Part shown: piece by piece, positions 4,110 to 30,189 of the stretch
Numbering within the stretch: the first letter of the stretch is position 1
Layout of the letters: the number at the start of each line of letters is the position of its first letter
Source of the DNA: Rhizobium sp. Pop5
GTDB lineage: Bacteria > Pseudomonadota > Alphaproteobacteria > Rhizobiales > Rhizobiaceae
DNA length: 64,000 bases
NCBI RefSeq assembly: GCF_024721175.1
Contig: NZ_CP099399.1
Coordinates: 2,294,001-2,358,000, forward strand
Direction of reading: 5' to 3'
Program-made: the position numbers and the translations under genes
The notes under the pieces: model-generated
The model's input: the letters and a program-made list of their open reading frames with translations, nothing else
Databases searched by the model: none
Told to the model about the DNA's origin: nothing

Positions 4110-5147
4110 TCAGCTCAGCGCGATACGTTCTCCCGTTGCCGCCGAGCGTTTTACCGCATCGATCACCCTCAAGGTTTCGAGCCCCTCACGCCCGCTGACA
4201 AGCGGCGGTTCGTCTCCGCGGATCACCTTGCAGAATTGCCTGATCTGCAGAGCGAGCGGGTCCTCGTCGTCGACCTCGATACGCTTTTGGTCAAACGGTT
4301 CCCACCAGCTCCGTTTACCGGGATTGCGCCAGACCTCGAGTGACGGAACAGCCAGCGACCCGTGCGTTCCTCCGATCATGTAACAGGATTGCTCGGTTTT
4401 GGGGTAAGCCGGATTCTCTCCGGTTGTCATCTCCCAGCTCCACGGTGCGACCACCGCGTCGGAGACTGTCGCAGTTCCCAAAACTCCATTCTTGAACTCG
4501 ATCAGGATGACAGCCGTTTCCTCAACCGCGTTGCCGCGCACCGCGTTGGACTCGCGTGCCTGAACTGCGGCGACATCGCCGAAAAGGTAGCGCAGATTAT
4601 CGACATCGTGGATGAGATTGAGGAAAACCGGCCCCGCACCGCGCTCGCGACGCCACGGGATGTCGAAGTAATCGTCGGGCTTGAACAACCAGAACATCGC
4701 ATTGACAACAAGAACGCGGCCTAGCTTCCCGCTTTCGATGATTTCCTTTGCCTTCCGCATCATCGGATTGTGTCGGCGGTGATGGCCGGTCAAAAGAGGA
4801 ACACCTTTTGCCTCTGCCGCTGCGATCAGCTTTTCCCCGGCTATAATGTCGTCGGCGATAGGCTTCTCGATGAGTGCGGCAACGCCGGCTTCAACGGCTT
4901 CCAACCCGTTCTGGACGTGAGCCTGGTTGGGCGTGGCCACGATGATCCCGTCAGGTCGGTCTGCGGCAATCATCTGCGCCAGGCTTGTGAACCACTTCAC
5001 GCCGGCTTCCTTGGCAATGGTCTCGCCAACCGGCGTAGGATCGACCACGGCACTGAGTTGCGCCGAGGGCTCGGCGAGGACGTGCTGAATATGGCGCTTG
5101 CCGATGAGACCTGCGCCAAGCACGGCCAACTTAACTGGTTGGGTCAT
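4110..5147 (-). CDS. Gfo/Idh/MocA-family NAD(P)-dependent dehydrogenase
   Basis: A 345-residue cytoplasmic oxidoreductase. The N-terminus has the Rossmann dinucleotide motif GAGLIG, followed by VATPNQAH and IEKPIADD, the family's conserved EKP element. The C-terminal alpha/beta domain contains LIHDVDNLRYLFG, where the His and Asp are the usual substrate-binding/catalytic positions. The start chosen is MTQPVKL at 5147, because GAGGTG lies at 5152-5157, and not the longer in-frame start at 5174, which would run into the gene upstream. It is the last gene of the leftward operon, 7 bases after the dehydroquinase gene. Family members act on inositols, sugars and cyclic polyols; oxidation or reduction of a quinate/shikimate-like ring is a plausible inference from context only. 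Confidence 0.9.
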   Translation of the reverse strand: MTQPVKLAVLGAGLIGKRHIQHVLAEPSAQLSAVVDPTPVGETIAKEAGVKWFTSLAQMIAADRPDGIIVATPNQAHVQNGLEAVEAGVAALIEKPIADDIIAGEKLIAAAEAKGVPLLTGHHRRHNPMMRKAKEIIESGKLGRVLVVNAMFWLFKPDDYFDIPWRRERGAGPVFLNLIHDVDNLRYLFGDVAAVQARESNAVRGNAVEETAVILIEFKNGVLGTATVSDAVVAPWSWEMTTGENPAYPKTEQSCYMIGGTHGSLAVPSLEVWRNPGKRSWWEPFDQKRIEVDDEDPLALQIRQFCKVIRGDEPPLVSGREGLETLRVIDAVKRSAATGERIALS

Positions 5148-5154
5148 AATCACC

Positions 5155-5604
5155 TCAGCCCTTGCTCGCCGCATTGATCATCGTCGCCGCGCGCCGGATG
5201 CCAAGCTGGTATCCTTCTGTTCCAAGGCCGCAGATCACGCCGTCCGCGCGGTGCGAAACGAACGAATGGTGCCGGAAGCTTTCGCGCTTGTGCACATTCG
5301 AGATGTGGATCTCGATCACCGGCCCTTCGAACGTGTTCAGAGCGTCGAGGATGGCGAGCGAGGTATGGGTGAAGGCTGCCGGATTGATGACGATGCCCGC
5401 ACCGTCTTCGCGCGCCTCGTGAATCCAATCGATGATCTCGTATTCCCGGTTGCTCTGATGAAAGCGGATTTCATGGCCGAGCTCGGCTGCCAGCTTGCGG
5501 CAGTCCGCCTCCACGTCTGCGAGCGTTTCATGCCCGTAGATATGCGGCTGGCGTTTGCCAAGCAGATTGAGGTTTGGTCCATTGAGAACGTAGATAAGGC
5601 TCAT
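5155..5604 (-). CDS. aroQ: Type II 3-dehydroquinate dehydratase
   Basis: A 149-residue type II dehydroquinase, normally a dodecamer of flavodoxin-like subunits that interconverts 3-dehydroquinate and 3-dehydroshikimate. The signature [11 protein letters not shown] at the start, catalytic Tyr23 (HIYG), the NPAAFTHTS loop, and EIHISN with His100 all fit the family, as does the length. The start is the ATG at 5604 behind GGAGGG. Its place between a Gfo/Idh dehydrogenase and a CHMI-like isomerase, in an operon with a second aroE-like gene and an importer, points to a catabolic (quinate or shikimate) role and not to the housekeeping aromatic amino acid pathway. That role is inferred from neighbours; the enzyme identity is clear. 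Confidence 0.93.
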
Positions 5605-5632
5605 AGTGCCCTCCTTGAGCACGCTGTTCTGG

Positions 5633-6001
5633 TCAGGCGAATGCGATTGCTTGAACGGCAAAATCAGGGTCCGACTCATAGAGATCTGCGCGCAAGCCGA
5701 GCCTTCCCGCTTCGAGAGCAGGCGCGGCGATCGTCCGCGCCGCCTCGAGAACGGCAGCAAGAAGCTTCTGCTTGGTCTCCGCGGTACGACCCGGTGCCAT
5801 CCGCACAATGATTTGGATGAAATGATGATCGACATGCTCATCGCCCACGCAGGAATATGTCGCCTCCCGCGCAAACGTGCGCACGGCGGAAGGTTTCACA
5901 AGGCCGCCATCGCGAACGCAGCGATGCACGGTGAGCGTCAGTCGGTCCATGGCTACATGCTCGCCTGCGCCCCGGCTATAATCGATGATGATGTGCGGCA
6001 T
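5633..6001 (-). CDS. 5-carboxymethyl-2-hydroxymuconate isomerase-family protein
   Basis: A 122-residue protein of the CHMI branch of the tautomerase superfamily (HpaF/HpcD-like). It starts MPHIIIDYS, so Pro would become the N-terminal catalytic base after Met removal, and continues with the family-like stretches [19 protein letters not shown] and [11 protein letters not shown]. The start at 6001 was chosen over a longer frame because of this Pro-2 and the length. In homoprotocatechuate degradation CHMI isomerises the semialdehyde-derived dienoate before decarboxylation. Here no HpaE or HpaG partner is visible, so the substrate may differ. It is in the leftward operon, 14 bases after the aroE-like gene. 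Confidence 0.82.
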
Positions 6002-6015
6002 TTGGGATCTCCCCA

Positions 6016-6876
6016 TCAAGCCGACAGGCGGCATAGATCCGTAAAGTGACGGGACATGCGCTCTGCGTCCGGTGCTATCCCGGTGAACAATTCGAAAGCT
6101 GCTGCTGCCTGGTAGACGGTCATGCCGCCGCCACGAAGGGTCCGGCAGCCTCTTCTTTCGGCGAGTGCAAGGAGCTCTGTGACGAGTGGCATATAGACGA
6201 TGTCGGCGACCCAATGCCTTGGCAGAAGCCATTCCGGATCGATCGGCAAACCTGGATGGCTCTTCATACCCGTCGGCGTAGCGTGGATAAGGCCGTCCGC
6301 GGAGCGCAGCGCGCTGCCGACATCCGTCGTGGCACGCGCGCATTCCCTTGAGAACCGATCGTTCAACTGCCGAGCCAAGGTTTCTGCCCGTTTCGAATCC
6401 TGGTCGAAGATCGACAGTCGCTCAATACCGAGCTTGATTGCGGCATGCGCCACGGCGACACCGGCGCCGCCGGCGCCAAGCAGGACGGCATGCGACCTCG
6501 CGACGTTCGTAAGGCCGCGCTGGAAATTCTCATAGAAACCGTACCAATCGGTGTTGTGGCCGATCCTCTCGCCGTCACGAAAGACCACGGTGTTGACCGC
6601 ACCAAGCATCTCCGCATCCTCCGAAAGGCGATTGAGATGGGCGATCACCGTCTGCTTGCACGGATGCGTAATGTTGCTCCCGGCAAAACCGCGCCGCTCT
6701 TCCTCGTCCAGGAGATCCGGCAACGCCGAGGCGGGAAGGCCTCGCTCGGCGAAGTCGAGAAGCTCGTAGCGGTAATCGAGGCCCTGGTGTCGAGCCTCCA
6801 TTTCGTGGAGCGCCGGGGACTTTGACATTTGGATGTCGGCCCCGATCAGTCCCACAAGAAATTTCTTGTCGTGCAT
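6016..6876 (-). CDS. Quinate/shikimate dehydrogenase
   Basis: A 286-residue member of the shikimate dehydrogenase family. The substrate site is complete: SKSPALHE (18-25), SNITHPCK with Lys74, and NTDWYGF with Asp110. A Rossmann motif GAGGAG occurs at 134-139. SNITHPCKQ resembles quinate/shikimate dehydrogenases (YdiB/QsuD type) more than the biosynthetic AroE consensus NVTxPxK, which together with the operon context suggests use in catabolism: oxidation of quinate or shikimate to the 3-dehydro acid. It lies between the ABC transporter ATPase gene (18-base gap) and the CHMI-like gene (14-base gap). Cofactor preference was not judged. Family assignment is secure; quinate versus shikimate preference is inference. 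Confidence 0.9.
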   Translation of the reverse strand: MHDKKFLVGLIGADIQMSKSPALHEMEARHQGLDYRYELLDFAERGLPASALPDLLDEEERRGFAGSNITHPCKQTVIAHLNRLSEDAEMLGAVNTVVFRDGERIGHNTDWYGFYENFQRGLTNVARSHAVLLGAGGAGVAVAHAAIKLGIERLSIFDQDSKRAETLARQLNDRFSRECARATTDVGSALRSADGLIHATPTGMKSHPGLPIDPEWLLPRHWVADIVYMPLVTELLALAERRGCRTLRGGGMTVYQAAAAFELFTGIAPDAERMSRHFTDLCRLSA

Positions 6877-6894
6877 TGGTATCGCCTTCGAACG

Positions 6895-7668
6895 TCAATG
6901 ATGGGCAAGGATTTCGCCGAGGAAGGTTTTCGTGCGTTGGTTCTTGGGAGACTTGAAGAAGACCTCCGGTTCGGCCTCTTCGACGATTTCTCCGGAGGCC
7001 ATGAAGATGACGCGATCAGCGACCTGACGGGCAAAGCCCATTTCGTGTGTGACACAGATCATCGTCATGCCGTCACGGGCGAGACTGATCATCGTGTCGA
7101 GCACCTCCTTCACCATTTCAGGATCGAGGGCAGAAGTCGGTTCGTCGAAGAGCATGACCTTCGGCTCCATGCAGAGCGCGCGAGCGATGGCAACGCGTTG
7201 TTGTTGTCCGCCCGATAGCTGCGCGGGATACTTGTCCGCCTGGTCGAGGATCCGAACGCGCTCGAGATATTTTCGCGCCAGTCGCACGGCATCAGTGTGG
7301 CTTGTGCCTCGAACACGCATCGGGGCGAGCGTACAGTTCTGAAGTACGGTCATATGGGGGAAGAGGTTGAAGCTCTGGAAGACCATTCCCACTTCGCGAC
7401 GTATCGCATCGATGGATTTGGTGCTTCCGTCCAGTACCTGACCCTCGACGACGACCTTGCCTTCCTCGATCGTCTCAAGGGCATTGATGCAGCGAATGAG
7501 CGTAGATTTCCCGGACCCTGACGGCCCGCAGAGGACGATTTTTTCGCCTTTGCGGACCGACAGGCTGATGGATTTCAATGCATGGAAAGCGCCGTACCAC
7601 TTCTGCACGTCCTCAAGGGAAATCAGCGTCGGTTGATCGTTTGCGGAATTGAGCACGGAACTCTCCAT
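6895..7668 (-). CDS. Polar amino acid-type ABC importer, ATPase
   Basis: A 257-residue ABC ATPase of the GlnQ/HisP (PAAT) class, acting on the cytoplasmic face of the importer encoded by the next three genes. It has Walker [10 protein letters not shown], the signature [15 protein letters not shown], Walker [14 protein letters not shown] and the H-loop in VTHEMGFA. The start at 7668 ([10 protein letters not shown]) avoids overlap with the solute-binding gene, which ends 7 bases upstream; the longer frame is a shadow extension. Enzymes for cyclic acids follow directly, so the cargo may be an organic acid such as quinate or shikimate and not an amino acid. This is inferred, since the family does include non-amino-acid importers. 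Confidence 0.93.
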
Positions 7669-7675
7669 TTGGGCT

Positions 7676-8500
7676 TTAATTGACGGTGAACGGGATGTTC
7701 GGAATTGATTCCGGGAACTTCGGCAGATCGATCGCCATCCACTTCTTCGTGATGGCAGCCAGCTCACCATCGGCCTTGATCTTGTCGACGAAGGCGTTGA
7801 CGGCTTCGTTCCAGTCCTTCTCGCCGAGACGGGTCCCGACGCCGTTGTAGGTCGTCAGAAAGTTAATCTTGCGTTCATAGGTGCCGGCACTCGCCGCATC
7901 CAGACGCTGACCATAGAACTGGTTGCCGCCAACCGCCTTTACCTGTCCGGAGATGAGAGCCTGGATGGTTGCGGCGTCGTCATCGAAGCGGCGGACCGTT
8001 GCGGTGGATCCGACGGCGTCCGTGACGGCCTTATCCTGCGAACTGGACTTTGGAACACCGATCTCCCATCCCGCAACGTCTTCAGGCTTCGCAACGGTGT
8101 CGGACTTCGCTGCATAAAGCGAAATCGTGTTAGCGGCGTAGGGCTTGCTGTATTGAATTGATTTCGCGCGTTCTTCCGTCATTGCCATCGTTGCGAACAG
8201 GATGTCGACTTTGCCGGTCGTGAGCGCCGGAATTCGGTTGGCGACGGCGAGCGGCTGGAACTGAACCTTCACGCCCAATTCCTTGGCAAAAAGGTTGGCG
8301 ATGTCAGCGTCGAAGCCATCCTGTACGCCGCTTGTGTTGACGAACCCCCATGGCGCATTGTCGCCCTGGATGCCGACCACGAGCGTGCCCTTTGCCTTGA
8401 TTTCCTCTACAGTTGCCGCAGAGGCGGCGGCAGCGCCAACGGTTGCGAAGGCAACGGTTGCCAGTGCAAGTCCGAGAAAATTCCTACGATTGTTATGCAT
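7676..8500 (-). CDS. Polar amino acid-type ABC importer, solute-binding protein
   Basis: A 274-residue periplasmic family 3 solute-binding protein. The N-terminus [14 protein letters not shown] followed by a hydrophobic run and ASA is a signal peptide; the RRNFLG element even resembles a Tat signal. The mature part begins [15 protein letters not shown] and contains [29 protein letters not shown], typical of the cluster 3 ligand site (family positions D/E and R). The start at 8500 follows an AAGGAGGAGG ribosome-binding site. It is between the ATPase and the two permease genes. The ligand is not predictable from sequence; the surrounding catabolic genes favour a cyclic hydroxy acid. Confidence 0.93.
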
Positions 8501-8541
8501 GTTTGTCCTCCTCCTTGAGAGTTTTGCTTCGAGCGAAGCGG

Positions 8542-9192
8542 CTAGCGGGCAGCTTTCGCCATCCGTTTTTCGAGGCTGCTTCCGGCATGGGAGAGCGGCC
8601 AGCAAATGATGAAGTAGATTGCCCCGACGATTCCGAAGACGAGCAGCGGACGATAGGTCTGGTTTGAAATGATCTGCCCGGCGCGAGTGAGCTCAATGAA
8701 GCCGACGATTGCCGCCAGCGACGTGCCCTTGATGAGCTGGACAAGGAAACCGATCGTGGCCGGCATCGAGATTTTCAGGGCCTGCGGCAGGATGACGTCT
8801 TTCATCCGCGAGACATAATGCAGTCCGAGGGCGTTGGCGGCTTCCGTCTGGCCCTTCGGAACAGCCTCGATGGAGCCGCGCCAGATTTCGCCCAGGAAAG
8901 CACTGGCATGGAGCGTGAAGGCGATTGCCACCGCGATCCACGCATTGACCTCGATGCCCAATAGCGCAACGCCGTAATAGACAACGAAGAGCTGCATCAG
9001 AAGGGGCGTGCCCTGGAAGAGGCCGATATAGCCTGCGGTGATCCTCCGGGCGACCTTCGTCCCCGAGGTGCGCAGCAGCGCGATGAGGATTCCGAATATC
9101 CCGCCACCGATGAACCCCACGATCGCGAGCAGAACAGTCCACTTCAAACCCTGCATCAAAAAGAAGAATTCATTTTCGCCGATGGGACCCAT
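8542..9192 (-). CDS. Polar amino acid-type ABC importer, permease 1
   Basis: A 216-residue inner-membrane permease of the HisMQ class with about five transmembrane helices. The EAA loop that contacts the ATPase is present as EAANALGLHYVSRMKDVILPQ. GGAGG precedes the ATG at 9192. The gene sits 9 bases after the second permease gene, so the two are translated together and would form a heterodimeric channel. Confidence 0.93.
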   Translation of the reverse strand: MGPIGENEFFFLMQGLKWTVLLAIVGFIGGGIFGILIALLRTSGTKVARRITAGYIGLFQGTPLLMQLFVVYYGVALLGIEVNAWIAVAIAFTLHASAFLGEIWRGSIEAVPKGQTEAANALGLHYVSRMKDVILPQALKISMPATIGFLVQLIKGTSLAAIVGFIELTRAGQIISNQTYRPLLVFGIVGAIYFIICWPLSHAGSSLEKRMAKAAR

Positions 9193-9201
9193 GGCTGCCT
9201 C

Positions 9202-9870
9202 CTATCGCGTCGGGTAGTTGAAGTAATTGCGAGAAATGAGGGCAAAGAGGCCCATCATCAGGGTCGATATAGCCAGGTAGATAGCGGTTACCGTGAAATA
9301 GACCTCGAAGCTGCGGAAGGTGTCAGACTCAATGCGCTGAGCGGCCGAGGTCAGTTCATAGGCGGCGATTGACGTGCAGACGGACGTTGTCAGTGTCAGC
9401 ATGATGAACTGGCTTGTGAGCGAGGGATAAATCGCCCGCAGTGCCGGCTTGAGCACGATGAGCCGGAAGACGTCCGCCTTGTGCAGACCAAGTGCGAAAC
9501 CTGCCTCGATCTGGCCGCGCGACACGCTTTCGACCCCGCCTCGGATGATCTCGATTGCGTAAGCCCCACCATTGATGCCGAGGGCAATGATGGCCGTAAC
9601 GGTCGGATTGAGGCGGATGCCCGTGAGAGGAAGGGCAAAATAAATAAAGAAGATCTGCACCAGGAATGGCGTATTACGCACAACCTCGACGAAGACGATT
9701 ACAAGAGTGCGCGTGATCTTCCTCTTGGAACTCCTCGCAACAACGCCCAGGATTCCAATGACGAGTGCGAGGAGCATCCCGGCCAACGCGAGGCCAAGCG
9801 TTCCAAGCGAACCCCATAGCAATTCCGGGGCGCGGTCCAGGACCGCACCGAAATCGAACGTATAACGCAT
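9202..9870 (-). CDS. Polar amino acid-type ABC importer, permease 2
   Basis: A 222-residue HisMQ-class permease with about five transmembrane helices. The EAA motif reads EAGFALGLHKADVFRLIVLKP. The start at 9870 follows a GGGAGGAGG ribosome-binding site. It is paired with the 216-residue permease immediately downstream and belongs to the operon headed by the GntR regulator. Confidence 0.93.
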   Translation of the reverse strand: MRYTFDFGAVLDRAPELLWGSLGTLGLALAGMLLALVIGILGVVARSSKRKITRTLVIVFVEVVRNTPFLVQIFFIYFALPLTGIRLNPTVTAIIALGINGGAYAIEIIRGGVESVSRGQIEAGFALGLHKADVFRLIVLKPALRAIYPSLTSQFIMLTLTTSVCTSIAAYELTSAAQRIESDTFRSFEVYFTVTAIYLAISTLMMGLFALISRNYFNYPTR

Positions 9871-9916
9871 GTAAGACTTCCTCCTCCCGACCGGCGTGCA
9901 CCGCGTCGGCGCCGGA

Positions 9917-10738
9917 TCAATGATCCGGTTTCAAAATTCCCAGTACGCAGTCATGCAGATGTTTTAGATGCGCCTCCGGGCCCATCGGCCCGACGAGTGG
10001 CACTTCAACCGAGATGGCAGCGCCGTATTCGGTTGCGACGCAGAGGTCCTTCAACGGCAATTCGCCTTCTCCCGGAGCGAACCTGCCGCTTCTCGCCTCG
10101 GCGATCATTGCGTCCGATGTTTCGGGAGCCGGCCCGCGGACGTCGCAAAGCTGGACGTGTTTTACCTTCCCTGCATTTACGCGAAGCTCGTCGATCGAGG
10201 CTCCGTTTCGAAAGAAGTGAATCCCGTCAACGAGGACACCGGCGTTCTCTGCACCACAGGAATTCACGACCGCTACGCTGTCGCGAAAGGTTCTGACTGC
10301 CCGCCAGCCCATATTTTCGATGTCGACGGACATGCCATATCGAGCCGCGAGGGCGCAAAAGTCCGAAAGGTTTGCGGCAAGACGGCCGCCGTCGCGATCA
10401 TCGCCGCAAACACTCAGCCGGCGCGCGCCTATGTTCGCAGCGGCTGCCACGGTCGCCTCATGGGAGGCCGCAACGAAGCTTTCGTCGATCACGAAGAACT
10501 CGATATCGAACACCTTGACGCCTTCGCCATCGGCAATTGTCTTGAATTCCTGGGCGCTGTGACTGCCCACCGGCAACTCGTAGAAAGGGGCGCCGGGGAA
10601 GGCAGGATGCAGACGCAGACCTATCGACGTAAAACCCGCCCGAGCAGCCGTCACGGCGAATTCATTGGGCGGCAGCGCGATGGATGAAAAATGTGCCACG
10701 CCCAGCTCAAGCCTCGGTCCTGGCGTCGCGACCGTCAT
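9917..10738 (-). CDS. TIM-barrel isomerase/dehydratase (AP endonuclease 2 family), possible 3-dehydroshikimate dehydratase
   Basis: A 273-residue protein of the sugar phosphate isomerase/epimerase superfamily. Candidate metal ligands in order are Glu in FDIEFF, Glu in VDIENMG, Asp and His in LVDGIHFFRNG, Asp in QLCDVRGP and Glu in ISVEVPL, the usual pattern of the family. The start ATG overlaps the regulator's stop (TAATG), so the two are translationally coupled; AAAGGGG lies upstream. Bacterial 3-dehydroshikimate dehydratases of the AsbF/QuiC type belong to this superfamily. With a quinate/shikimate dehydrogenase and a dehydroquinase in the same operon, conversion of 3-dehydroshikimate to protocatechuate is an attractive hypothesis. 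The sequence alone does not separate this from a sugar isomerase. Confidence 0.8.
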   Translation of the reverse strand: MTVATPGPRLELGVAHFSSIALPPNEFAVTAARAGFTSIGLRLHPAFPGAPFYELPVGSHSAQEFKTIADGEGVKVFDIEFFVIDESFVAASHEATVAAAANIGARRLSVCGDDRDGGRLAANLSDFCALAARYGMSVDIENMGWRAVRTFRDSVAVVNSCGAENAGVLVDGIHFFRNGASIDELRVNAGKVKHVQLCDVRGPAPETSDAMIAEARSGRFAPGEGELPLKDLCVATEYGAAISVEVPLVGPMGPEAHLKHLHDCVLGILKPDH

Positions 10739-11475
10739 TACAAAATCCCCTTTGTTGAGAGGTGACTACGCAGGTTGGTTCCCGTGCGGTGGATATGCTG
10801 ACGCAACATATCGCACGCATAGTCCAGATCCCGCGCGACGGCTCCCTGAGCAATCTCACTGTGTTCCTGGCTGACGTTGCGGTCACCCGACGTGCGGGTC
10901 AGAAACACCCGGCGATAACGGTCGTTGAGATTGAGAAGCAGTCTGCAGAAATGGAGCAGGATCGGCTTCCCGCAGCCAGAGATGAGTGTCAGATGATATT
11001 CGCGGTGGAGTTCTTCCCAGCGCTCCAGCGTCTCTGGCCGAGCCGCGTCGCGCTCGGTGCGGTTAAGGCGATGCAGCGCGCGCATGACGTTGCCCTCCCA
11101 TTCCACATCGCCGAGCCGCATGGACTCGCGAAGCGCAAAGACTTCAAACTCCTCGCGCAGGGTGGTGATCTCTTCCAGATTGGCCAAGGAAATTGCTGAA
11201 ACGCGGTAGCCGCGATTGTCCTCGAACTCCACCAGACCGTCCGATATCAGCCGTGCCAATCCTTCACGCAGCGGACTGAGGCTTACGTTGAACGTCTTGC
11301 GCGCCTTGTCGAGATTGATCTTGCTGCCGGCTTGAAGTTCGCCGGAGATGATCGCCTCGCGAAGACGGGATGCAAGCTGGCTCCCAATTGTGTTTTTGCC
11401 GTCATCGAGAAAGCCAGAAGACGATGGAGCATCTTCTGTCGTCGGAGCAAATGCGCCGTCGTCATCCGGTACCAT
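10738..11475 (-). CDS. GntR-family transcriptional regulator (FCD domain)
   Basis: A 245-residue FadR-subfamily repressor. A winged helix of about residues 30-95 contains the typical SQLASRLREAIISGELQAG and SLSPLREGLARL stretches, followed by a helical FCD ligand-binding domain (EEFEVFALRESM through LRQHIHRTG). GGAGGA precedes the ATG at 11475. It heads the leftward catabolic operon and faces the divergent dioxygenase operon across 250 bases containing two related AT-rich palindromes, one inside the dioxygenase promoter. The likely role is to control both operons and respond to the imported compound or an intermediate. That is inferred from position. Confidence 0.9.
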   Translation of the reverse strand: MVPDDDGAFAPTTEDAPSSSGFLDDGKNTIGSQLASRLREAIISGELQAGSKINLDKARKTFNVSLSPLREGLARLISDGLVEFEDNRGYRVSAISLANLEEITTLREEFEVFALRESMRLGDVEWEGNVMRALHRLNRTERDAARPETLERWEELHREYHLTLISGCGKPILLHFCRLLLNLNDRYRRVFLTRTSGDRNVSQEHSEIAQGAVARDLDYACDMLRQHIHRTGTNLRSHLSTKGIL

Positions 11476-11516
11476 TGTTCCTCCAAGGCCCCAAATTAAT
11501 TGTCGATGATCGATAC

Positions 11517-11530
11517 AATAAACGATTATT
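11517..11530. promoter_or_regulatory. Candidate GntR operator upstream of its own gene
   Basis: AATAAACGATTATT is an imperfect palindrome in front of the regulator gene. It shares CGATTATT with the palindrome at 11681-11692 in front of the divergent operon. Just next to it, ATTGT and ACAAT flank CGAT repeats at about 11499-11519, another possible half-site pair. Confidence 0.4.
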
Positions 11531-11673
11531 CATGTCAACTTACGACCGTTGAAATTTGAGAAAAGCCACACCCGGATTCCCTTTAAGCAAATAAAGCATA
11601 ATTAATTCAATGGTATAAATGCCAACATCCCTTTCCCCTTGGCTTCCCTGGGTCGCGAGATCGCATGGCGGCC

Positions 11674-11702
11674 TTGACAGATAATCGATTATTTGGATAG
11701 TC
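11674..11702 (+). promoter_or_regulatory. Promoter of the dioxygenase operon with operator in the spacer
   Basis: TTGACA at 11674-11679 is a consensus -35 box. A 17-base spacer contains the perfect palindrome ATAATCGATTAT (11681-11692), and a weak -10 (ATAGTC) follows at 11697-11702, 24 bases before the start codon. A repressor bound here would block RNA polymerase directly. Confidence 0.5.
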
Positions 11703-11725
11703 GTGAAAATCGGGAGGTAACCCAC

Positions 11726-12619
11726 ATGGTGATCAAAACTGAAAGCGATCTGACGCCAGCCGTCCTCGCTGTGATGAATCGCACTGAAGACCCTCGCCTG
11801 CGAGAAATCCTCGTGGCGATGGTCAGGCATCTTCATGCCTTCGTGCGCGAGGTACGACTGACGGAGGTCGAGTTTCGGGAGGCGACAGCCATGCTGAATG
11901 AGATCGGCAAGCTGCATACCGATCACCACAACGAGTTTGTGCTGATGGCCGGTTCCCTTGGCGTGTCTTCACTTGTGTGCCTGCTGAACAATGGTGACAG
12001 TGGACAGACCGAAACCTCCCAGTCGCTGCTGGGCCCATTCTGGCGCCTCAACTCTCCGCGGGTCGAAAATGGAGGATCGATCATTCGATCCGAAACGCCG
12101 GGCACTCCCTTGTTCGTGCATGCCAGGGTCGTTGACCGCGACGGCAAGCCAATTGCCGGCGCCGAAGTGGATGTCTGGCATGCATCTCCCGTCGGTCTCT
12201 ATGAAAACCAGGATCCGGACCAGGCCGAGATGAACTTGCGCGGCAAATTCATCACCGACGAGCAAGGTCGGTTCTGGTTCAGGACCGTCAAGATGGTCGG
12301 ATATCCGATACCGGTCGATGGTGTGGTCGGACGCCTGCTCAAAGCGCAGGGACGCCATCCGTATCGACCAGCGCACCTGCACGCACTGATCTTCAAACAT
12401 GGATACAAGACGCTGATTTCCCAGGTCTTCGACCCTAGCGACCCGAACATCGACTCCGATGTTCAGTTCGGTGTCACGGCAGCGCTGACCGGCGACTTCG
12501 TTCGTCATGAGGAGCCCCATCCGAGCGAAGCGGATATTCCTGGTCCGTGGTTCTCGCTCGACTACACCTATGTCATGGAGCCCGGCGAAGCGCTTTTGCC
12601 GCGCCCCCCGATCAAATAA
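11726..12619 (+). CDS. Intradiol ring-cleavage dioxygenase, hydroxyquinol 1,2-dioxygenase-like
   Basis: A 297-residue non-haem Fe(III) dioxygenase with the N-terminal helical dimerisation domain found in catechol and hydroxyquinol dioxygenases (about 1-100) and a beta-sandwich catalytic domain. The four iron ligands are recognisable: Tyr159 (VGLYEN), Tyr193 (VGYPIPVDG), His217 and His219 (RPAHLH). The YPIPVDG and RPAHLHALIFKHGYKTLISQVF stretches resemble hydroxyquinol 1,2-dioxygenases, which give maleylacetate. GGGAGG at 11712-11717 supports the start at 11726 over the upstream in-frame ATG. It is the first gene of a four-gene operon whose next two enzymes normally act after extradiol cleavage, an unusual combination. 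Confidence 0.9.
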   Translation: MVIKTESDLTPAVLAVMNRTEDPRLREILVAMVRHLHAFVREVRLTEVEFREATAMLNEIGKLHTDHHNEFVLMAGSLGVSSLVCLLNNGDSGQTETSQSLLGPFWRLNSPRVENGGSIIRSETPGTPLFVHARVVDRDGKPIAGAEVDVWHASPVGLYENQDPDQAEMNLRGKFITDEQGRFWFRTVKMVGYPIPVDGVVGRLLKAQGRHPYRPAHLHALIFKHGYKTLISQVFDPSDPNIDSDVQFGVTAALTGDFVRHEEPHPSEADIPGPWFSLDYTYVMEPGEALLPRPPIK

Positions 12620-12643
12620 ATCGCGATCACCAGAGCAAACGAT

Positions 12644-13426
12644 ATGATCACAGAAGAAGAACGCCGGGCAGTGGCAGACGCGCTGCTCAATGCTGAAATC
12701 GAGCGCGAGCCGATCATGCAGCCCAGCAAGACCTACCCTAACCTCGAACTCGAGGACGCCTACCGAATTCAGGCTTTGTGGGCTGAGGCGAGAGTAGCCA
12801 AGGGCGCACGGATCGTCGGGCACAAGATTGGCCTGACGTCCCGCGCAATGCAGATGGCTTCGAAGATGACGGAGCCGGACTACGGCTGCATCCTTGACGA
12901 CGCAGTTTACAACGACGGAGCGCAGATCAGGGCTGACTTGTTCATCAAGCCGCGCCTCGAGGTCGAGCTGGCCTTTGTAATGGGTGAGGATCTCGTCGGG
13001 CCCGGCACCAGGATTTATGACGTCATGCGCGCGACCGAGTTCGTTGTGCCTGCGCTCGAGATTATCGACTACCGGACCCAGGTCCCTCGAGCGATCACCG
13101 ATACCATTGCAGACAACGCAGCTTTCGGCGCCCTCGTCGTTGGCGGCCGTATCATTCGCCCGATGGACATCGATATCCGTTGGGTCGGAGCGACTCTTTC
13201 CAAGAACGGCATTATTGAGGAATCGGGCGTGTCGGCCGCGATCATGGGACATCCGGCAGCCGGCATCGCGTGGCTGGTCAACAAGCTTCATGCCGTGGGC
13301 GGTGGCCTGAAGAAGGGACAAATAGTCCTGGCCGGCTCCTTCACGCGTCCCGTCGATATCGCGAAAGGTGATGTGATCCAGGCCGACTATGGCCCTGTTG
13401 GCTCCATCGGCGTGTCGTTCGTGTGA
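12644..13426 (+). CDS. hpaH: 2-oxo-hept-4-ene-1,7-dioate hydratase-like (HpaH family)
   Basis: A 260-residue member of the hydratase/decarboxylase family (HpaH, MhpD, DmpE relatives), Mg-dependent enzymes of lower meta-cleavage pathways. Recognisable stretches are [41 protein letters not shown] and the C-terminal [16 protein letters not shown]. HpaH adds water to 2-oxo-hept-4-ene-1,7-dioate to give the substrate of HpaI, which is exactly the next gene. The gap from the dioxygenase gene is 24 bases. The sequence fits HpaH well; whether the natural substrate here is the homoprotocatechuate intermediate is uncertain, since HpaD, HpaE and HpaG are absent from the window. Confidence 0.88.
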
Positions 13427-13434
13427 GGTGCCAG

Positions 13435-14226
13435 ATGGAACATCCTGTCAATCGGTTCAAGCAGAAGCTTCTTGCTGGTCAAAGTCAGATCGGCCTGTGG
13501 TGTGGCTTGCCGGGAAACTACGCCGCGGAAATCGTCGCGCCTTCAGGTTTCGATTGGCTCCTGTTCGACACGGAACATTCCCCGGGTGACGTTCTGACCG
13601 TACTGCCGCAATTGCAAGCGGTCGCACCCTACGACGTTTCCCCAGTCGTCCGCCCTGCCATCAACGATCCCGTCCTCATCAAACGTTTCCTGGATATCGG
13701 CGTTCAGACACTGCTCATTCCCTACGTTCAGAACGCGGAAGAGGCGAAAGCCGCAGTCGCGGCCGTGCGATATCCTCCTGATGGAATTCGTGGTGTTTCT
13801 GCCCTGACGCGTGCCACTCGTTTCGGCCGAGTTGCGCACTATGCGCAAAATGCGGAACGGGAAATTTGCCTGTTGCTGCAAGTCGAGACGCGGGAAGCGC
13901 TTGGCAACCTGGAGGCGATTGCCTCGGTAGAGGGAGTGGATGGCGTATTCATAGGACCGGCAGACCTGGCAGCAAGTTTCGGACACAGGGGCCAACCGAA
14001 CCACCCGGAGGTGGTCGATGCAATTGTCGACGCGATTGAACGCCTGAAAGCGCTGGGCAAGCCTGCGGGCATTCTTACCCCGGATGAGAAGTTCGCGGCA
14101 CGGTGCATCTCACTGGGAACGCTATTTACTGCCGTTGGTGTCGACGTCGCTCTGCTGGCGAGGGGATCGGAAGCACTCGCGGCACGGTTTGCATCGCAAG
14201 GAGCGGACCGCAATGCCGCAACGTGA
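13435..14226 (+). CDS. hpaI: HpcH/HpaI-family class II aldolase
   Basis: A 263-residue metal-dependent pyruvate aldolase that splits 4-hydroxy-2-oxo-heptane-1,7-dioate-type substrates. His48 (FDTEHSP), Arg73 (VVRPAIND), Glu in [13 protein letters not shown] and Asp in [14 protein letters not shown] match the catalytic and metal-binding residues of HpaI. The start at 13435 lies 8 bases after the hydratase stop and behind GAGGTG, so the earlier in-frame ATG at 13423 is rejected. It works with the hydratase upstream and yields pyruvate plus an aldehyde. The last 14 bases overlap the following gene. Confidence 0.88.
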
Positions 14227-14896
14227 CGAACTCCTCGCTGAAATCGCACCGACGGGAGTCATCAGGGCGGCGGTCAACATGTCGAATGCCGCACTTGTCC
14301 AACTCGATCCAGTGACAGGCACGCTAACAGGGTCGAGCGCGCAGATAGCGGTCGAACTGGCAGCAGAACTCGACTGCGGCCTGTCGCTGGTTCAATACGG
14401 ATCGGCCGCGGACATTCTTGCGGCTGCCGAAGGTAACGAGTGGGACGTTGCGTTCATTGCATCCGATCCATCACGTGCCGATAGGTTCTCCTTCTCGCCC
14501 CCCTACACCACGGTGTCCGCCAGCTTTCTGGTGCCAGACAGTAGCCCGTTAGGCAGCTTGGAGCATGTCGATGTCGAAGGAGTGCGCATCGCCGCCGCCA
14601 GAACCGCTGCGTATACAAAGCAGCTTGAGCGATTGGTTAGAAATGCAATCGTCCTCCATACCGAAAATCCCGCCTCCGCCCTGGATATGCTTGTATCCTC
14701 CGAGTGCGACGCGGCTGCGGGCTTGACGGAGTCCCTGTCACGTTTTTGCGAAAAGAACCCAGGTTTCCACGTCGTTGATCGGGCATTCTCGAAAGTGCCT
14801 CAGGCGATCGCTGTGCATCGGAGGTGCGTTCACGCTTCAACCTTTCTGTCGGACTTCATCCAGCAGCATTACGGTGCAGGTAAGCCGAACAACTGA
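14213..14896 (+). CDS. Solute-binding-like protein (family 3 fold) without signal peptide
   Basis: A 227-residue protein resembling the ligand-binding domain of polar amino acid-type solute-binding proteins: [17 protein letters not shown] at the start, then [34 protein letters not shown], a classical family 3 stretch. No signal peptide or lipobox precedes the domain. The start at 14213 has AAGGAG upstream and overlaps the aldolase gene by 14 bases, so it is translationally coupled to it. The protein therefore appears cytoplasmic and could be a sensor, chaperone or buffer for a pathway intermediate. It could also be a domain that lost its secretion signal. Family is likely, function unknown. 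Confidence 0.75.
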
Positions 14897-26542: not shown

Positions 26543-28690
26543 ATGGACGTCCGGGGAATGGCAGGAATTCAGGATTCTGCCGAGACGGAGATATTTACGG
26601 TGAGGGCCGAAAACCCTATAAACTGGCTGATTGAGCTTTCCTACGAGGACACCAAAAGCAGCATCGATGGGCTGGTTCTGGTGAAAGGTTTCCGCGCGCT
26701 CGATCTTCCGCCCGAACAATATGAGATGATGGAGAAGGCGGAGAGTTACGGGGCGCATTCGGTCTTTTTCGAGGCTAGTCGGAACAACCGGTCGCAGGTG
26801 GCTCAGGCTTTCATCTACGTCAGCGATCATCCCGGCGCGAGCGATAAATTCGCTCTCCTGCACAAGAGGCTGTGGAGTTGGGGCGGCGTTCCCCTGCTCT
26901 ATCGTAAGACACCCGGGAAAGTGGAGCTGTTCCGCTGCGCCAGCAAGGCAGACTTCGACCAGAACACAGAGATTCCCAAGTATCGCGCCTATGATACGCT
27001 AACCGTCGCCGCCAACATCGCGAACGCTGAAAGCGCCACGGCCGCATGGTGGGATTTCGGCCGCCTGCGCAATGGCACCTTATGGGACGACCCTACCGTC
27101 TGCGAGCACCTGCTGTCGGACACGGCGTCGGCGCATCGGCACCTCGTTGGCAATATCTTCGGTCTCTACAAGAAGATTAGAGCGGATGCGCTACTCAGCG
27201 AAAGCTTGCAGCGTCGGCTGCTGATCTTGTCGCTGCTGATCGCGTACCTCGACGAGCGCAACGCGCTCGAGACCGACTATTTCGCGCAGTTCCAGCCCGG
27301 AGCCACGACCTTCGCCCAAGTGATGCGTAGCGGTCCGGCCCTGGTCAAGCTGCTGGCCGCCCTCGAAAAGCGCTTCAACGGCCATGTGTTCGAACTCGAC
27401 GACGATCTCCGCGCGGAACTTGTCGAAAGCACGCAGCTTGGAGCCTTCGCCGACCTCATCGAAGGGCAACTGGATGCGCATGGCCAAGGAAGTTTCTGGC
27501 GGCTCTACTCATTCCGTGACCTGCCAGTAGAACTGATCAGCAACATTTATCAGTTGTTCGTCGAGGACAAGGATAGCTCGATCTACACGCCGCCGGCGCT
27601 TGTCCGCCTGATGCTTGACGAGGCCTTGAGCTGGGAGCGTTTAGATTCGCTGGTCGAACGCGACGAGATCATTCTCGATCCGGCGTGCGGTTCGGCAGTC
27701 TACCTAGTGGAGGCTTATAAGCGCCTCGTTCTTCACTGGCGGATGCGAAACGGATGGAAAAGGCCCAAGACCGCAGATTTGAAGGCGTTGCTCGCTCGCG
27801 TTCATGGCGTCGATCTGGAGCCCGGCGCGATCAAGCTCGCCGCTTTCAGTCTCTGCCTTGCGCTGTGCGAAGCGCTTGAACCCGAACATATCCGCAAAAG
27901 CGTCCAATTGTTCCCCGAGCTCGAGGGCAAGACTTTGCATCTCAGTTGCTTCTTCGAGGCAATCGAGCGGGGGGTGATTACGAGAAATGTTGGCGTGATA
28001 GTCGGTAATCCGCCATTCAAGTCCAAGCTTTCGACGCCGGCAGCTCTGCGCGCCGCCGCCGCGTTCAAAACAGAACTGGGTAGCAAGCTGCCTGATGACC
28101 AGCTTGCTTACCTATTCCTCGTTTATGCGAAGAGCCTCCTCGCGGAGCGCGGGGTCATCAGTATGATCCAACCGGCCGGGTTCCTCTACAACCTGAACCC
28201 CGAAGCGATACGCAGGCATCTTTTCGAGAAGTGGAATGTTCGCGAGATTCTCGATTTCGTGTCGGTTCGAGGATTGTTCTCCAAGGGCGACGCGGACACG
28301 AAAATCATCGTCGTCGTCGCCTCAGCGGGCGAACCCGACCCCACGCGGAAGGTCCTGCACGCCATATTCCGTCGCAGCGGCAAGGCGGATGCGGAGCAGA
28401 GTTTCGACATTGATTATTACGATATGCACTGGCTCTCCAGGACCCCGGATTTGGCCGATCATCGCACGTGGCGCTCTGGGCTTCTCGGGAGCCAGCGCGT
28501 CGCCGCCTTCGTCCAGCGGTTGACAAAGATGCGGACGCTGGGCGTGTTCGCAAATGAGAAAGGTTGGATATTCGGCCAAGGCTTCATTCGTGGCAACAAG
28601 GCTCATAGGCATTCGCTCGACCACATCTGGGGCAAGAAAATGGTGCCCCAGGCGCAATCGGCCCGTTCGGGATCGACAGAAGCAAAGTGA
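26543..28690 (+). CDS. N6-adenine DNA methyltransferase of a restriction-modification system, N-terminal part (frameshifted)
   Basis: A 715-residue class I DNA methylase related to the large Eco57I-like/Type IIG enzymes. After about 340 residues of helical N-terminal region come YTPPALVRLM (348-357), the AdoMet motif DPACGSA (379-385) and the catalytic NPPF motif (489-492), then a region ending near FGQGFIRGNKAHRH. The frame stops where a target-recognition region should begin. The following ORF (28687-29469) supplies just that region in the -1 frame. One extra C in the run CCCC near 28647-28650 would join them into about 970 residues, the usual length. It is followed by a nuclease gene. Confidence 0.85.
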   Translation: MDVRGMAGIQDSAETEIFTVRAENPINWLIELSYEDTKSSIDGLVLVKGFRALDLPPEQYEMMEKAESYGAHSVFFEASRNNRSQVAQAFIYVSDHPGASDKFALLHKRLWSWGGVPLLYRKTPGKVELFRCASKADFDQNTEIPKYRAYDTLTVAANIANAESATAAWWDFGRLRNGTLWDDPTVCEHLLSDTASAHRHLVGNIFGLYKKIRADALLSESLQRRLLILSLLIAYLDERNALETDYFAQFQPGATTFAQVMRSGPALVKLLAALEKRFNGHVFELDDDLRAELVESTQLGAFADLIEGQLDAHGQGSFWRLYSFRDLPVELISNIYQLFVEDKDSSIYTPPALVRLMLDEALSWERLDSLVERDEIILDPACGSAVYLVEAYKRLVLHWRMRNGWKRPKTADLKALLARVHGVDLEPGAIKLAAFSLCLALCEALEPEHIRKSVQLFPELEGKTLHLSCFFEAIERGVITRNVGVIVGNPPFKSKLSTPAALRAAAAFKTELGSKLPDDQLAYLFLVYAKSLLAERGVISMIQPAGFLYNLNPEAIRRHLFEKWNVREILDFVSVRGLFSKGDADTKIIVVVASAGEPDPTRKVLHAIFRRSGKADAEQSFDIDYYDMHWLSRTPDLADHRTWRSGLLGSQRVAAFVQRLTKMRTLGVFANEKGWIFGQGFIRGNKAHRHSLDHIWGKKMVPQAQSARSGSTEAK

Positions 28691-29469
28691 CGGACGCGCC
28701 GCAGGTTCCGATCTCGGACGTGAAGTCCGAGCAGGCATTTCAATCGCCGCTCCTCCTCATCCGGAAGCACCAGGATCTCGACCACGGGGTGTGGACCGAC
28801 GGTTATATGACCTTCGCGGATGAGATCGTTGGCTTCTCGGGGGCTGAAAGGAGCGCGAAGTCGCTGCACCAAGTCGCGGAGTTTCTGTCGGCCAATCGAG
28901 ATGCGCTATCGGCCTATGTCGCCGCAACCAGCTTCCGGCTGTATAATAAGAAGGCAACTGTGACGAGCACTGGCGACATTCTCGACCTTCCGTTTCCAGA
29001 GACGGGAGATCTCGCACTGAGCGCCAGCGAATCCATTCTCGTTCAGGATATCGTGAAGTTTCAGCGCGAACTCATCCGGATGGGCGATAAATCTTTCGCG
29101 CTGAAAAGCACCGGGCATAATGTGATGCCCCAATTCAACGAGACGCTCCTCGCTTCGATCAATCGCTTTTACGGCGACAACCCACTGATTGCTCATCCAT
29201 ACCACTCCTGGCCCGGGATCATCTGCCAGCCTTATTCGTTTGGCCCGACCGAAATCGACTGGGCGGAAAGTGATAAACTGCGCAGCCGGCTCGACGTACT
29301 CATCAGGGAGCAACGCAGCGAAACAATCTCGGTGACCCGGATTGCCCGAATCTACGACGATAATCTTCTTTTCCTGATCAAACCAGACAGGCTCCGCTTC
29401 TGGATGCGGTCAATCGCTTTGCGCGACGCCGACGAGGTGCTCGCTGATCTTCGTGCGCAAGGGTACTAG
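28687..29469 (+). CDS. Target-recognition/C-terminal part of the DNA methylase
   Basis: A 260-residue ORF starting at a GTG that overlaps the methylase stop. It reads like the C-terminal recognition region of Eco57I-like methylases: SPLLLIRKHQDLDHGVWTDGYMTFADEIVGFSGA, then FLSANRDALSAYVAATSFRLYNKKATVTSTGDILDLPFPE, a stretch that normally follows the catalytic domain in one chain. In its frame the upstream sequence also reads sensibly (GPFGIDRSKVTDAPQ), so it is the displaced end of the same protein rather than a separate specificity subunit. A separate translated subunit starting at GTG remains possible because the overlap would allow coupling. Confidence 0.75.
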   Translation: MTDAPQVPISDVKSEQAFQSPLLLIRKHQDLDHGVWTDGYMTFADEIVGFSGAERSAKSLHQVAEFLSANRDALSAYVAATSFRLYNKKATVTSTGDILDLPFPETGDLALSASESILVQDIVKFQRELIRMGDKSFALKSTGHNVMPQFNETLLASINRFYGDNPLIAHPYHSWPGIICQPYSFGPTEIDWAESDKLRSRLDVLIREQRSETISVTRIARIYDDNLLFLIKPDRLRFWMRSIALRDADEVLADLRAQGY

Positions 29470-29472
29470 CTT

Positions 29473-30189
29473 ATGCTGGCGGACCGGGGGGAGGAGGGGC
29501 CGGTAAGACAGGGACTGAGAGTAGGACTCCACCTGCCCTCGACCCAATTTCGAAAACTCGTGGCCTTTATCGCGGCCGCACTGCCATTCTGGCGAGACGA
29601 TGAACTCCGCAGGTCGGAGACAGCCGAGGATGCTCTCTCCGACCAGCTCTGCGACTTCCTCAACGACGCCGCGCGAAATTCACCAGGGTTCGACGCCTTC
29701 AAGTTCCAGCGCGAGACCCGCGACGACAGCAAGGGCGGGCGTAATCTAGACATCACTGCAAAGCCGAGCGGATGCTCGATTTGGATTGGCGACCGCCATT
29801 ATTCACCCTACGATATATTCCTGCCGATCGAGTGCAAGCGCCTCCCCACCCCTGCCGCCACAAAGCGCGATCCACGCGAGTATCTTTTCAGTGGCAGCAG
29901 TTCGACCGGGGGCGTCCAGCGTTTCAAGAGCGGCGCGCATGCCGCCAATCATGCATTTGCGGCGATGATCGGATATGTCCAGGATCAGGATATTCCACAT
30001 TGGCAACAGGAACTCGACAAGTGGGTTGATGAGTTGTCGACATCAGCCGAGCCGTTATGGAGCGCGAACGATCGCCTCGAACTTGAGCATCATGACAAGG
30101 GCGGACGCCACGCGATCCTCAATTCCAACCACGCCCGCGCCGACGGTCTCAACGATATCGCTATGAGTCATCTCTGGATCGAAATGTAA
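29473..30189 (+). CDS. Putative restriction endonuclease, PD-(D/E)XK type
   Basis: A 238-residue cytoplasmic protein. It starts 3 bases after the methylase C-terminal ORF. The nuclease core is visible as Glu52, Asp93 in GGRNLDI and the ECK of LPIECKRLP (Glu120, Lys122), spaced as in PD-(D/E)XK enzymes. Further on come YLFSGSSSTGGVQRFKSGAHAANHAFAAMIGYVQ and LNDIAMSHLWIEM. Located after a methylase, it is the likely cleaving partner. No named restriction enzyme is recognised, so specificity and subtype are unknown. It may need the frameshifted methylase for protection, which would make an intact methylase important in the living strain. Confidence 0.7.
   Translation: MLADRGEEGPVRQGLRVGLHLPSTQFRKLVAFIAAALPFWRDDELRRSETAEDALSDQLCDFLNDAARNSPGFDAFKFQRETRDDSKGGRNLDITAKPSGCSIWIGDRHYSPYDIFLPIECKRLPTPAATKRDPREYLFSGSSSTGGVQRFKSGAHAANHAFAAMIGYVQDQDIPHWQQELDKWVDELSTSAEPLWSANDRLELEHHDKGGRHAILNSNHARADGLNDIAMSHLWIEM

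Follow-up and report, generated by a model that had tools for sequence, protein, structure and literature searches.

A divergent gene cluster of Rhizobium sp. Pop5 that may join quinate/shikimate catabolism to an intradiol opening of gallate

The qsu genes of Corynebacterium and the qui genes of Acinetobacter and Pseudomonas bring together a quinate/shikimate dehydrogenase, a type II dehydroquinase, and a dehydratase-like TIM barrel. The same three are encoded in a divergent cluster of 14 genes in Rhizobium sp. Pop5 (genome of 6.74 Mb), found at positions 4110-14896 of the 64,000-nucleotide stretch analysed here (NZ_CP099399.1, 2,294,001 to 2,358,000; hereafter the window), which differs from qsu and qui by its own ring-opening and aldolase genes, an ATP-binding cassette (ABC) importer of the polar amino acid type, and a GntR/FCD switch. 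With the homoprotocatechuate (hpa) pathway it shares homologues of CHMI, HpaH, and HpaI, the latter two over their equivalog cut-offs, but the extradiol HpaD, HpaE, and HpaG are missing from the 14 genes and an intradiol ring opening is found instead. The gal pathway of Pseudomonas putida has the proposed oxalomesaconate and carboxy-hydroxy-oxoadipate intermediates and the products pyruvate and oxaloacetate in common with it; GalA, however, is an extradiol enzyme of the LigB type, and the subsequent gal enzymes belong to other families, none of them being present in the cluster. To our knowledge, intradiol-type enzymes are not used for gallate in the known pathways.

A first-pass annotation of the window had described ten plus four divergent genes here, and all 14 reading frames are indeed present and intact, with gaps of 7-46 bp or short overlaps between them. 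Read from a shared control region of 250 bp, the leftward operon (minus strand) encodes a GntR/FCD regulator, the TIM barrel, two permeases, a solute-binding protein, an ATPase, the quinate/shikimate dehydrogenase (QSDH), CHMI, the dehydroquinase AroQ, and a Gfo/Idh dehydrogenase; the rightward operon (plus strand) encodes the intradiol dioxygenase (IDO), HpaH, HpaI, and a solute-binding-like protein, SbpC. The two divergent operons of that annotation were retained and its single GntR control region is supported by the 250-bp region with its palindrome, but the GntR gene belongs to the leftward ten as their first gene, and the rightward starts were corrected, placing IDO at 11726..12619, HpaH at 12644..13426, HpaI at 13435..14226 (or from a GTG at 13423), and SbpC at 14213..14896. 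As had been presumed, no described cluster with exactly this set was found in the open-licence literature searched, nor was a description of the ring-opening gene combination.

The cluster is real and conserved, and it looks dedicated. Our leading reading, favored tentatively at somewhat less than an even chance, is a single regulon that takes quinate or shikimate from uptake to an aromatic acid and whose rightward module opens gallate. We infer every reaction from the observed genes, arrangement, conservation, operator-like palindrome, and module swapping. The ABC importer would take up quinate or shikimate, QSDH would oxidize them, and AroQ would dehydrate dehydroquinate, after which dehydroshikimate would be turned into an aromatic acid, the substrate for ring opening by the rightward genes. 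Gallate might arise from oxidation of dehydroshikimate at C5 by the Gfo/Idh dehydrogenase or QSDH, or be supplied externally. IDO would cleave gallate between two of its hydroxyls, giving 4-carboxy-2-hydroxymuconate (the enol of 4-oxalomesaconate), which CHMI and/or SbpC may tautomerize or isomerize, whereupon HpaH would hydrate and HpaI would cleave 4-carboxy-4-hydroxy-2-oxoadipate to pyruvate and oxaloacetate, with no further genes needed. The TIM barrel may turn the same dehydroshikimate into protocatechuate for the genome's pcaHG, and GntR would repress both arms until an intermediate releases it.

The wider proposal, namely a bacterial gallate route with intradiol ring opening, CHMI-HpaH-HpaI, and an SbpC isomerase, fed by quinate/shikimate or lignin acids and carried as a swappable, often plasmid-borne regulon of plant-associated bacteria, is possible, yet we rather doubt it as a whole. 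If true, it would add another bacterial way of opening gallate, connect two plant acids, quinate and shikimate, with gallate within a single regulon found in root-nodule bacteria and relatives, and supply one more example of a soluble enzyme derived from a binding-protein fold. The public-record names of such genes (catechol 1,2-dioxygenase, sugar phosphate isomerase/epimerase, and transporter substrate-binding protein) would then need correcting.

Natural variants, spread, and the shared operator

Natural variants of the cluster are the best evidence. On the plasmids pAt 186 (Agrobacterium tumefaciens) and pAt2 (A. fabrum), the dioxygenase, HpaH, HpaI, and SbpC genes are followed by a LigM-type O-demethylase and methyl-tetrahydrofolate genes. 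The two demethylases score 854 and 822 bits, respectively, against a cut-off of 580 for the LigM-type vanillate/3-O-methylgallate O-demethylase, and the pAt2 protein matches LigM in the PDB at 2e-224. Two Bosea plasmids carry the IDO-HpaH-HpaI trio with folD, purU, and a GntR gene; one of them also has a DesA-like demethylase (513 bits, below the cut-off of 800) and a PobA-like hydroxylase further along, and the other has the PobA-like gene and no demethylase in the stretch read. A single operon in Sagittula combines an FCD regulator, TIM barrel, AroQ, Gfo, dioxygenase, HpaH, an HpaI-like protein, SbpC, and an MFS transporter, without QSDH and CHMI. On two Agrobacterium plasmids, TIM and GntR genes face dioxygenase, HpaH, and HpaI genes (plus SbpC in A. 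vitis), with no further cluster gene in the stretch read. One ring-opening module has thus been joined to two kinds of supply, quinate genes in some clusters and tetrahydrofolate-dependent O-demethylases in others. In the dioxygenase tree, the four demethylase-type plasmids treated as one label need three changes, at least two of which are forced by well-supported branches; in that labelling, L137 counts as demethylase type from folD and purU alone, and L085 as other owing to its short stretch, though TIM, GntR, and HpaH occur there.

The cluster is widespread and not peculiar to the Pop5 genome. It is kept in Sinorhizobium, Rhizobium, Shinella, Neorhizobium, and part of Mesorhizobium; reduced forms occur in other alphaproteobacteria. 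The whole-cluster DNA matched 65 records, 18 of them over at least 80% of its length; among the 20 whose identities were listed, 14 Sinorhizobium plasmid records show 92.5-93.8% identity over 96-100% of the length, and those of Rhizobium and Shinella about 76-78%. Genes were counted in the best 80 of 502 encoding stretches. By strict count, all 14 genes are present in 25 of these 80 loci, and seven more miss only the ATPase, which the gene listing does show; this co-occurrence goes beyond what chance would give. HpaH is present in 47 loci, accompanied by the TIM barrel (47), HpaI (46), GntR (46), AroQ (43), SbpC (41), QSDH (38), CHMI (38), and Gfo (36), some counted absences being contig ends or gene-calling limits (L072 stops before HpaI, and the GntR of L044 is present in the gene listing). 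The remaining 33 loci show no HpaH in the stretch, and 19 of these are titled Bradyrhizobium. Across 385 evenly drawn genomes of the class, 23 match at E 1e-60 and five, host included, exceed 60% identity, and close relatives are thus uncommon at this sampling. Extra HpaH-based searches were positive in 1 of 43 and 3 of 297 genomes; one of these is the known L085 and the others are L136, G446, and G700, L136 having HpaH without IDO in a wider stretch.

Two deletion variants were observed. In Rhizobium cremeum (L030, 5802-7181) a single frame begins ATPase-like and later matches Gfo, and Rhizobium sp. BK650 (L031, 7041-8187) has lost the importer together with most of QSDH.

The control region contains the palindrome ATAATCGATTAT (12 bp, 11681..11692, plus strand), which starts 45 bp ahead of the IDO gene and occurs once in the genome; a second copy with one mismatch was matched by pattern on the GntR side (11518..11529, plus strand). 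With at most one mismatch and within 300 bp upstream, this operator precedes all 47 dioxygenase genes linked to HpaH (an exact copy in 37, one mismatch in 10), compared with 1 of 32 dioxygenase genes whose locus shows no HpaH; L069, having no dioxygenase call, was excluded. The one case, L039, is a contig end carrying TIM and GntR, and its operator is the GntR-side copy. As a control, 300-bp stretches were drawn at random from these loci, and 28 of 940 contained a match at this threshold, some being operators themselves. For the window only, and at up to two mismatches, 3 matches were found against 0.9 expected, and 9 of 100 shuffles were equally high. Beyond the 80 loci, pAt 186, pAt2, and the A. 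vitis plasmid carry an exact operator, and the copies in Methylobacterium and both Bosea plasmids differ from it at a single position; it was absent from the Sagittula operon in an upstream pattern check. The window's GntR (10738..11475, minus strand, Pfam/NCBIfam) is 75-79% identical to its counterparts in the two Agrobacterium demethylase-type plasmids and 61-62% to those in the two Bosea plasmids, and a single regulator that responds to something shared by the two kinds of cluster would be the natural reading of these sequences. GntR is presumed to act on the palindrome, and the identity of its inducer and the sign of regulation proposed above are likewise presumptive.

Ring-opening genes and the candidate substrate

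HpaH and HpaI use 2-oxo-enoates and 4-hydroxy-2-oxo acids as substrates, and an intradiol enzyme delivers a 2-oxo-enoate solely from three neighbouring hydroxyls (a 1,2,3-triol). Intradiol cleavage of protocatechuate gives carboxymuconate, which provides no 2-oxo-enoate for HpaH and HpaI. Since HpaH and HpaI need the 2-oxo-enoate and the intradiol route requires a vicinal triol, gallate is the best candidate substrate; the ring-opening role given earlier to the second operon still stands, but the aromatic diol named as its substrate was given up. The HpaH-type hydratase lies barely over its cut-off (TIGR02312, 352.9 against 351.5 bits), the HpaI-type pyruvate aldolase well above (TIGR02311, 418.9 against 368.8 bits), and the CHMI-family tautomerase (5633..6001, minus strand), which has a Met-Pro start, reaches 67.7 bits against 26.5 for Pfam PF02962.

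By family models and alignment, IDO is a catechol-type enzyme of a Gly76 subfamily. Its nearest solved structures are the hydroxyquinol 1,2-dioxygenases 1tmx and 3n9t, and the Tyr and His iron-ligand positions are retained by eye. Gly76 occurs in 57 of the 60 rows listed, a count that leaves out 33 rows of at least 88% identity, and it is invariant in a separate 11-row alignment; the exceptions (L086, L105, and L116) have Asp, as do five aligned hydroxyquinol-type PDB chains. Asp83 of 1tmx, which aligns with Gly76, is an active-site residue. Hydroxyquinol was set aside as IDO substrate because the discriminating Asp is missing and there is no maleylacetate reductase among the 14 genes. In L116 and L117, related dioxygenases have a short-chain dehydrogenase/reductase, a cupin, and a 3-keto-5-aminohexanoate cleavage protein as neighbours, which may belong to a further lower pathway not yet described.

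In the whole host genome, where LigB was the extradiol family searched, the best hit (PF02900) reached 20.3 bits against a cut-off of 26.3. No LigK/GalC aldolase is found in the cluster (the best TIGR02798 score, 189.8 against 304.5, lies on another replicon), and no host gene exceeded the LigM cut-off tested. With LigB, LigK, and LigM missing at these cut-offs, the cluster could be the host's only gallate route. The host carries pcaHG on C3, so that an IDO acting on protocatechuate would be redundant. A precedent for triol cleavage is a yeast intradiol enzyme that reportedly cleaves pyrogallol with a Km of 0.1 mM and a kcat of 10.6 per s, 2-hydroxymuconate being discussed in its pathway (PMC9204233). 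For Aspergillus flavus, a citing paper mentions 4-carboxy-2-hydroxymuconate from gallate and takes it to suggest an extradiol enzyme (PMC10512348). In two Microvirga loci, counted as lacking SbpC, HpaI is followed by a gene of the RraA/HMG-aldolase family (217 bits against 136 for RraA; 180 against 196 for HMG-aldolase), which may be a mild hint at the same intermediate.

Quinate/shikimate genes and rival readings

The quinate/shikimate funnel proposed in the first-pass annotation is borne out by its gene families. QSDH (6016..6876, minus strand) belongs to the NF009201 shikimate dehydrogenase subfamily (444.1 bits against 235) and best matches the quinate/shikimate enzyme of Corynebacterium glutamicum in the PDB (3jyo, E 1.6e-65), though it falls short of the NAD+ quinate/shikimate equivalog PRK14027 (238 against 515). 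The type II 3-dehydroquinate dehydratase AroQ (5155..5604, minus strand; TIGR01088, 189.7 bits against 169.85) is 86-99% identical across loci holding the full set, and a second copy exists in the host genome at C2:1474915. The KRQP and AFTHTS changes relative to the housekeeping copy had suggested an altered AroQ substrate, an idea dropped as such changes also occur in other dehydroquinases. The TIM barrel (AP_endonuc_2 by Pfam, 9917..10738, minus strand) has the dehydroshikimate dehydratase QuiC1 among its best profile and structure relatives, tied in structure with Lmo2234 and IolI. Its metal ligands E141, D171, and E245 are invariant in 24 rows, and the Glu-Asp-Glu set is conserved in AsbF, QsuB, and Qa-4; presumably these ligands also occur in sugar epimerases of the fold and are hence not dehydratase-specific. 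QSDH, dehydroquinase, and a dehydratase-like TIM barrel (by resemblance alone) stand together here as in a quinate/shikimate cluster. Judged by its sequences, this half would follow standard chemistry, and a conversion of quinate/shikimate to dehydroshikimate is supported.

The Gfo/Idh/MocA dehydrogenase (Pfam, 4110..5147, minus strand) is the other candidate oxidant, of dehydroshikimate (at C5) or of quinate. At least 95% of the rows in a 38-row alignment share its EKP motif, and it is also part of the compact Sagittula operon; no LigC-type dehydrogenase model matched it in the family scan, which proves nothing. In plants, shikimate dehydrogenases are described as converting dehydroshikimate to gallate (PMC4892741, PMC7752791). 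Next to the cluster of Methylobacterium nodulans (L112), an AroQ homologue at 5147-5570 matches in two pieces and may be a pseudogene, and a neighbour annotated as ThiF family carries a shikimate dehydrogenase domain.

A number of observations weigh against gallate as the substrate. LigM also uses vanillate, giving protocatechuate, and the PobA-like protein of Bosea shows the usual residues in an alignment and should give protocatechuate as well, for which reason its role as a protocatechuate-to-gallate hydroxylase was rejected. The TIM barrel resembles a protocatechuate-making dehydratase, is kept in all 47 HpaH-linked loci, and persists even where Gfo, AroQ, and QSDH were not found. Gfo is counted absent from 11 of the 47 loci, some at contig ends. 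A Bradyrhizobium IDO relative lies between pcaF and pcaHG (L045, the sole such locus scanned with family models). The HpaI homologues of pAt2 and Sagittula remain below the HpaI cut-off (352.0 and 323.9 against 368.8), CHMI is missing in Sagittula and others, SbpC is missing in Bosea and two Microvirga loci, and neither a tannase nor any other gene specific to gallate was noticed, no search having been aimed at these. Improbable, in our judgement, is nevertheless that IDO acts on protocatechuate and that HpaH, HpaI, CHMI, and SbpC were remodelled for a new lower pathway from carboxymuconate (or after extradiol cleavage): although TIM, LigM, and the PobA-like protein can each yield protocatechuate by their usual reaction and the Bradyrhizobium gene sits within a pca operon, no chemistry linking carboxymuconate to HpaI is known to us, HpaI scores 50 bits above the equivalog cut-off, and the host already has pcaHG. 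A further point against gallate comes from the same yeast enzyme, which reportedly gave the expected products only with catechol, pyrogallol, and hydroxyquinol, gallic acid being among the substrates (PMC9204233). That a catechol-type enzyme takes pyrogallol and, in that assay, not gallate speaks for pyrogallol or another decarboxylated triol, which would be turned via 2-hydroxymuconate and 4-hydroxy-2-oxoadipate into pyruvate and malonic semialdehyde, and CHMI, HpaH, and HpaI suit 2-hydroxymuconate well. Such a route is still less probable, as no look-alike of a gallate decarboxylase or malonic semialdehyde dehydrogenase is present among the 14 genes and some SbpC relatives stand among tricarboxylate genes.

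The strongest rival, unlikely though it seems to us, keeps gallate but separates the two operons: QSDH, AroQ, and TIM would bring quinate/shikimate to protocatechuate for pcaHG, and the rightward operon would degrade external gallate (galloyl-quinate esters or demethylated lignin acids being conceivable sources), both under one switch and with no joining enzyme. This would agree with the QuiC1-like TIM barrel, with TIM relatives that adjoin shikimate dehydrogenases in Janthinobacterium and Rhodococcus, with a 428-aa protein (P0282) that combines TIM-barrel and dehydroquinase Pfam domains, and with pcaHG-like genes upstream of the cluster in Microvirga L064 besides the host's own pcaHG. It leaves Gfo without a role, however, and would not lead one to expect the two Agrobacterium plasmids where TIM stays with GntR-IDO-HpaH-HpaI and the stretch read shows no further quinate gene, nor loci L067 and L084, where AroQ adjoins IDO with neither HpaH nor TIM seen.

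SbpC, importer genes, and neighbouring observations

Cyclohexadienyl dehydratase (CDT) is an enzyme that arose from a solute-binding protein and has Glu173 as catalytic residue (PMC7683729). SbpC shares the fold of CDT and its binding-protein ancestors, but it is signal-less, only 16-23% identical in the fold matches, and located in another operon; a CDT-like dehydration was set aside because the resemblance is one of fold alone. The SBP_bac_3 assignment (Pfam) agrees with an AlphaFold2 model (pLDDT 90.8) of the type-3 binding-protein fold, whose nearest matches, amino acid binding proteins and the AncCDT/CDT line, lie within about 2 Z units from 22.6 downward in lists that do not exclude other families. 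By eye, a signal peptide is absent from 46 SbpC family rows (45 distinct), and the best 12-residue N-terminal hydropathy is 0.66-1.89, compared with 1.87-2.52 for the cluster's true binding protein. The binding-protein fold noted at first pass was thus confirmed, but with no signal peptide and less hydrophobic N termini SbpC is probably not a transporter part.

Arg88 of SbpC, the usual carboxylate ligand of the fold, is kept in all of 28 aligned proteins; among these, P0186 starts with a long N terminus that resembles a signal. Relatives of 30-39% identity have aconitase, an MFS carrier, and a citrate-type carrier as neighbours in Pantoea, and in Paracoccus and Variovorax they adjoin genes for tripartite tricarboxylate transport; those in Phytobacter and Burkholderia have neighbours that tell nothing of tricarboxylates, which weighs against the leading reading. 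Oxalomesaconate is a homologue of aconitate, and by this analogy our guess is that SbpC may be a candidate oxalomesaconate isomerase or tautomerase. The aconitate isomerase of Pseudomonas WU-0701 may be a further analogue. Pantoea is listed among genera isolated as trans-aconitate users and producers, which has no bearing on the SbpC protein itself (PMC13188880).

The SbpC of L110/L118 matches 19 plasmid records at 99% identity or more, of which the ten listed come from walnut A. tumefaciens and may reflect one sampling effort. Walnut reportedly makes gallate from dehydroshikimate (PMC7943615). On A. fabrum pAt2, the demethylase-type cluster adjoins genes (L114, 17504-20891) that carry the annotation of a CBASS defence cluster.

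The importer comprises, all on the minus strand, an ATPase of the polar amino acid type (6895..7668), a periplasmic solute-binding protein with signal peptide and hydrophobic N terminus, presumed to be the quinate/shikimate receptor (7676..8500), permease 1 (8542..9192), and permease 2 (9202..9870). These four were named from open reading frame translations alone, and Pfam/NCBIfam calls cover the ten other genes.

The unusual composition remarked on earlier holds for the gene set but not for the bases. GC is 0.57-0.60 at 4-16 kb and 0.60-0.68 elsewhere in the window, except for 24-30 kb, which is equally low (0.58-0.59), so that the gene set is the unusual point. Within this other lower-GC stretch, a large N6-DNA-methylase-like protein (by eye) and two partner genes at 26543-30189 may form a restriction/defence island.

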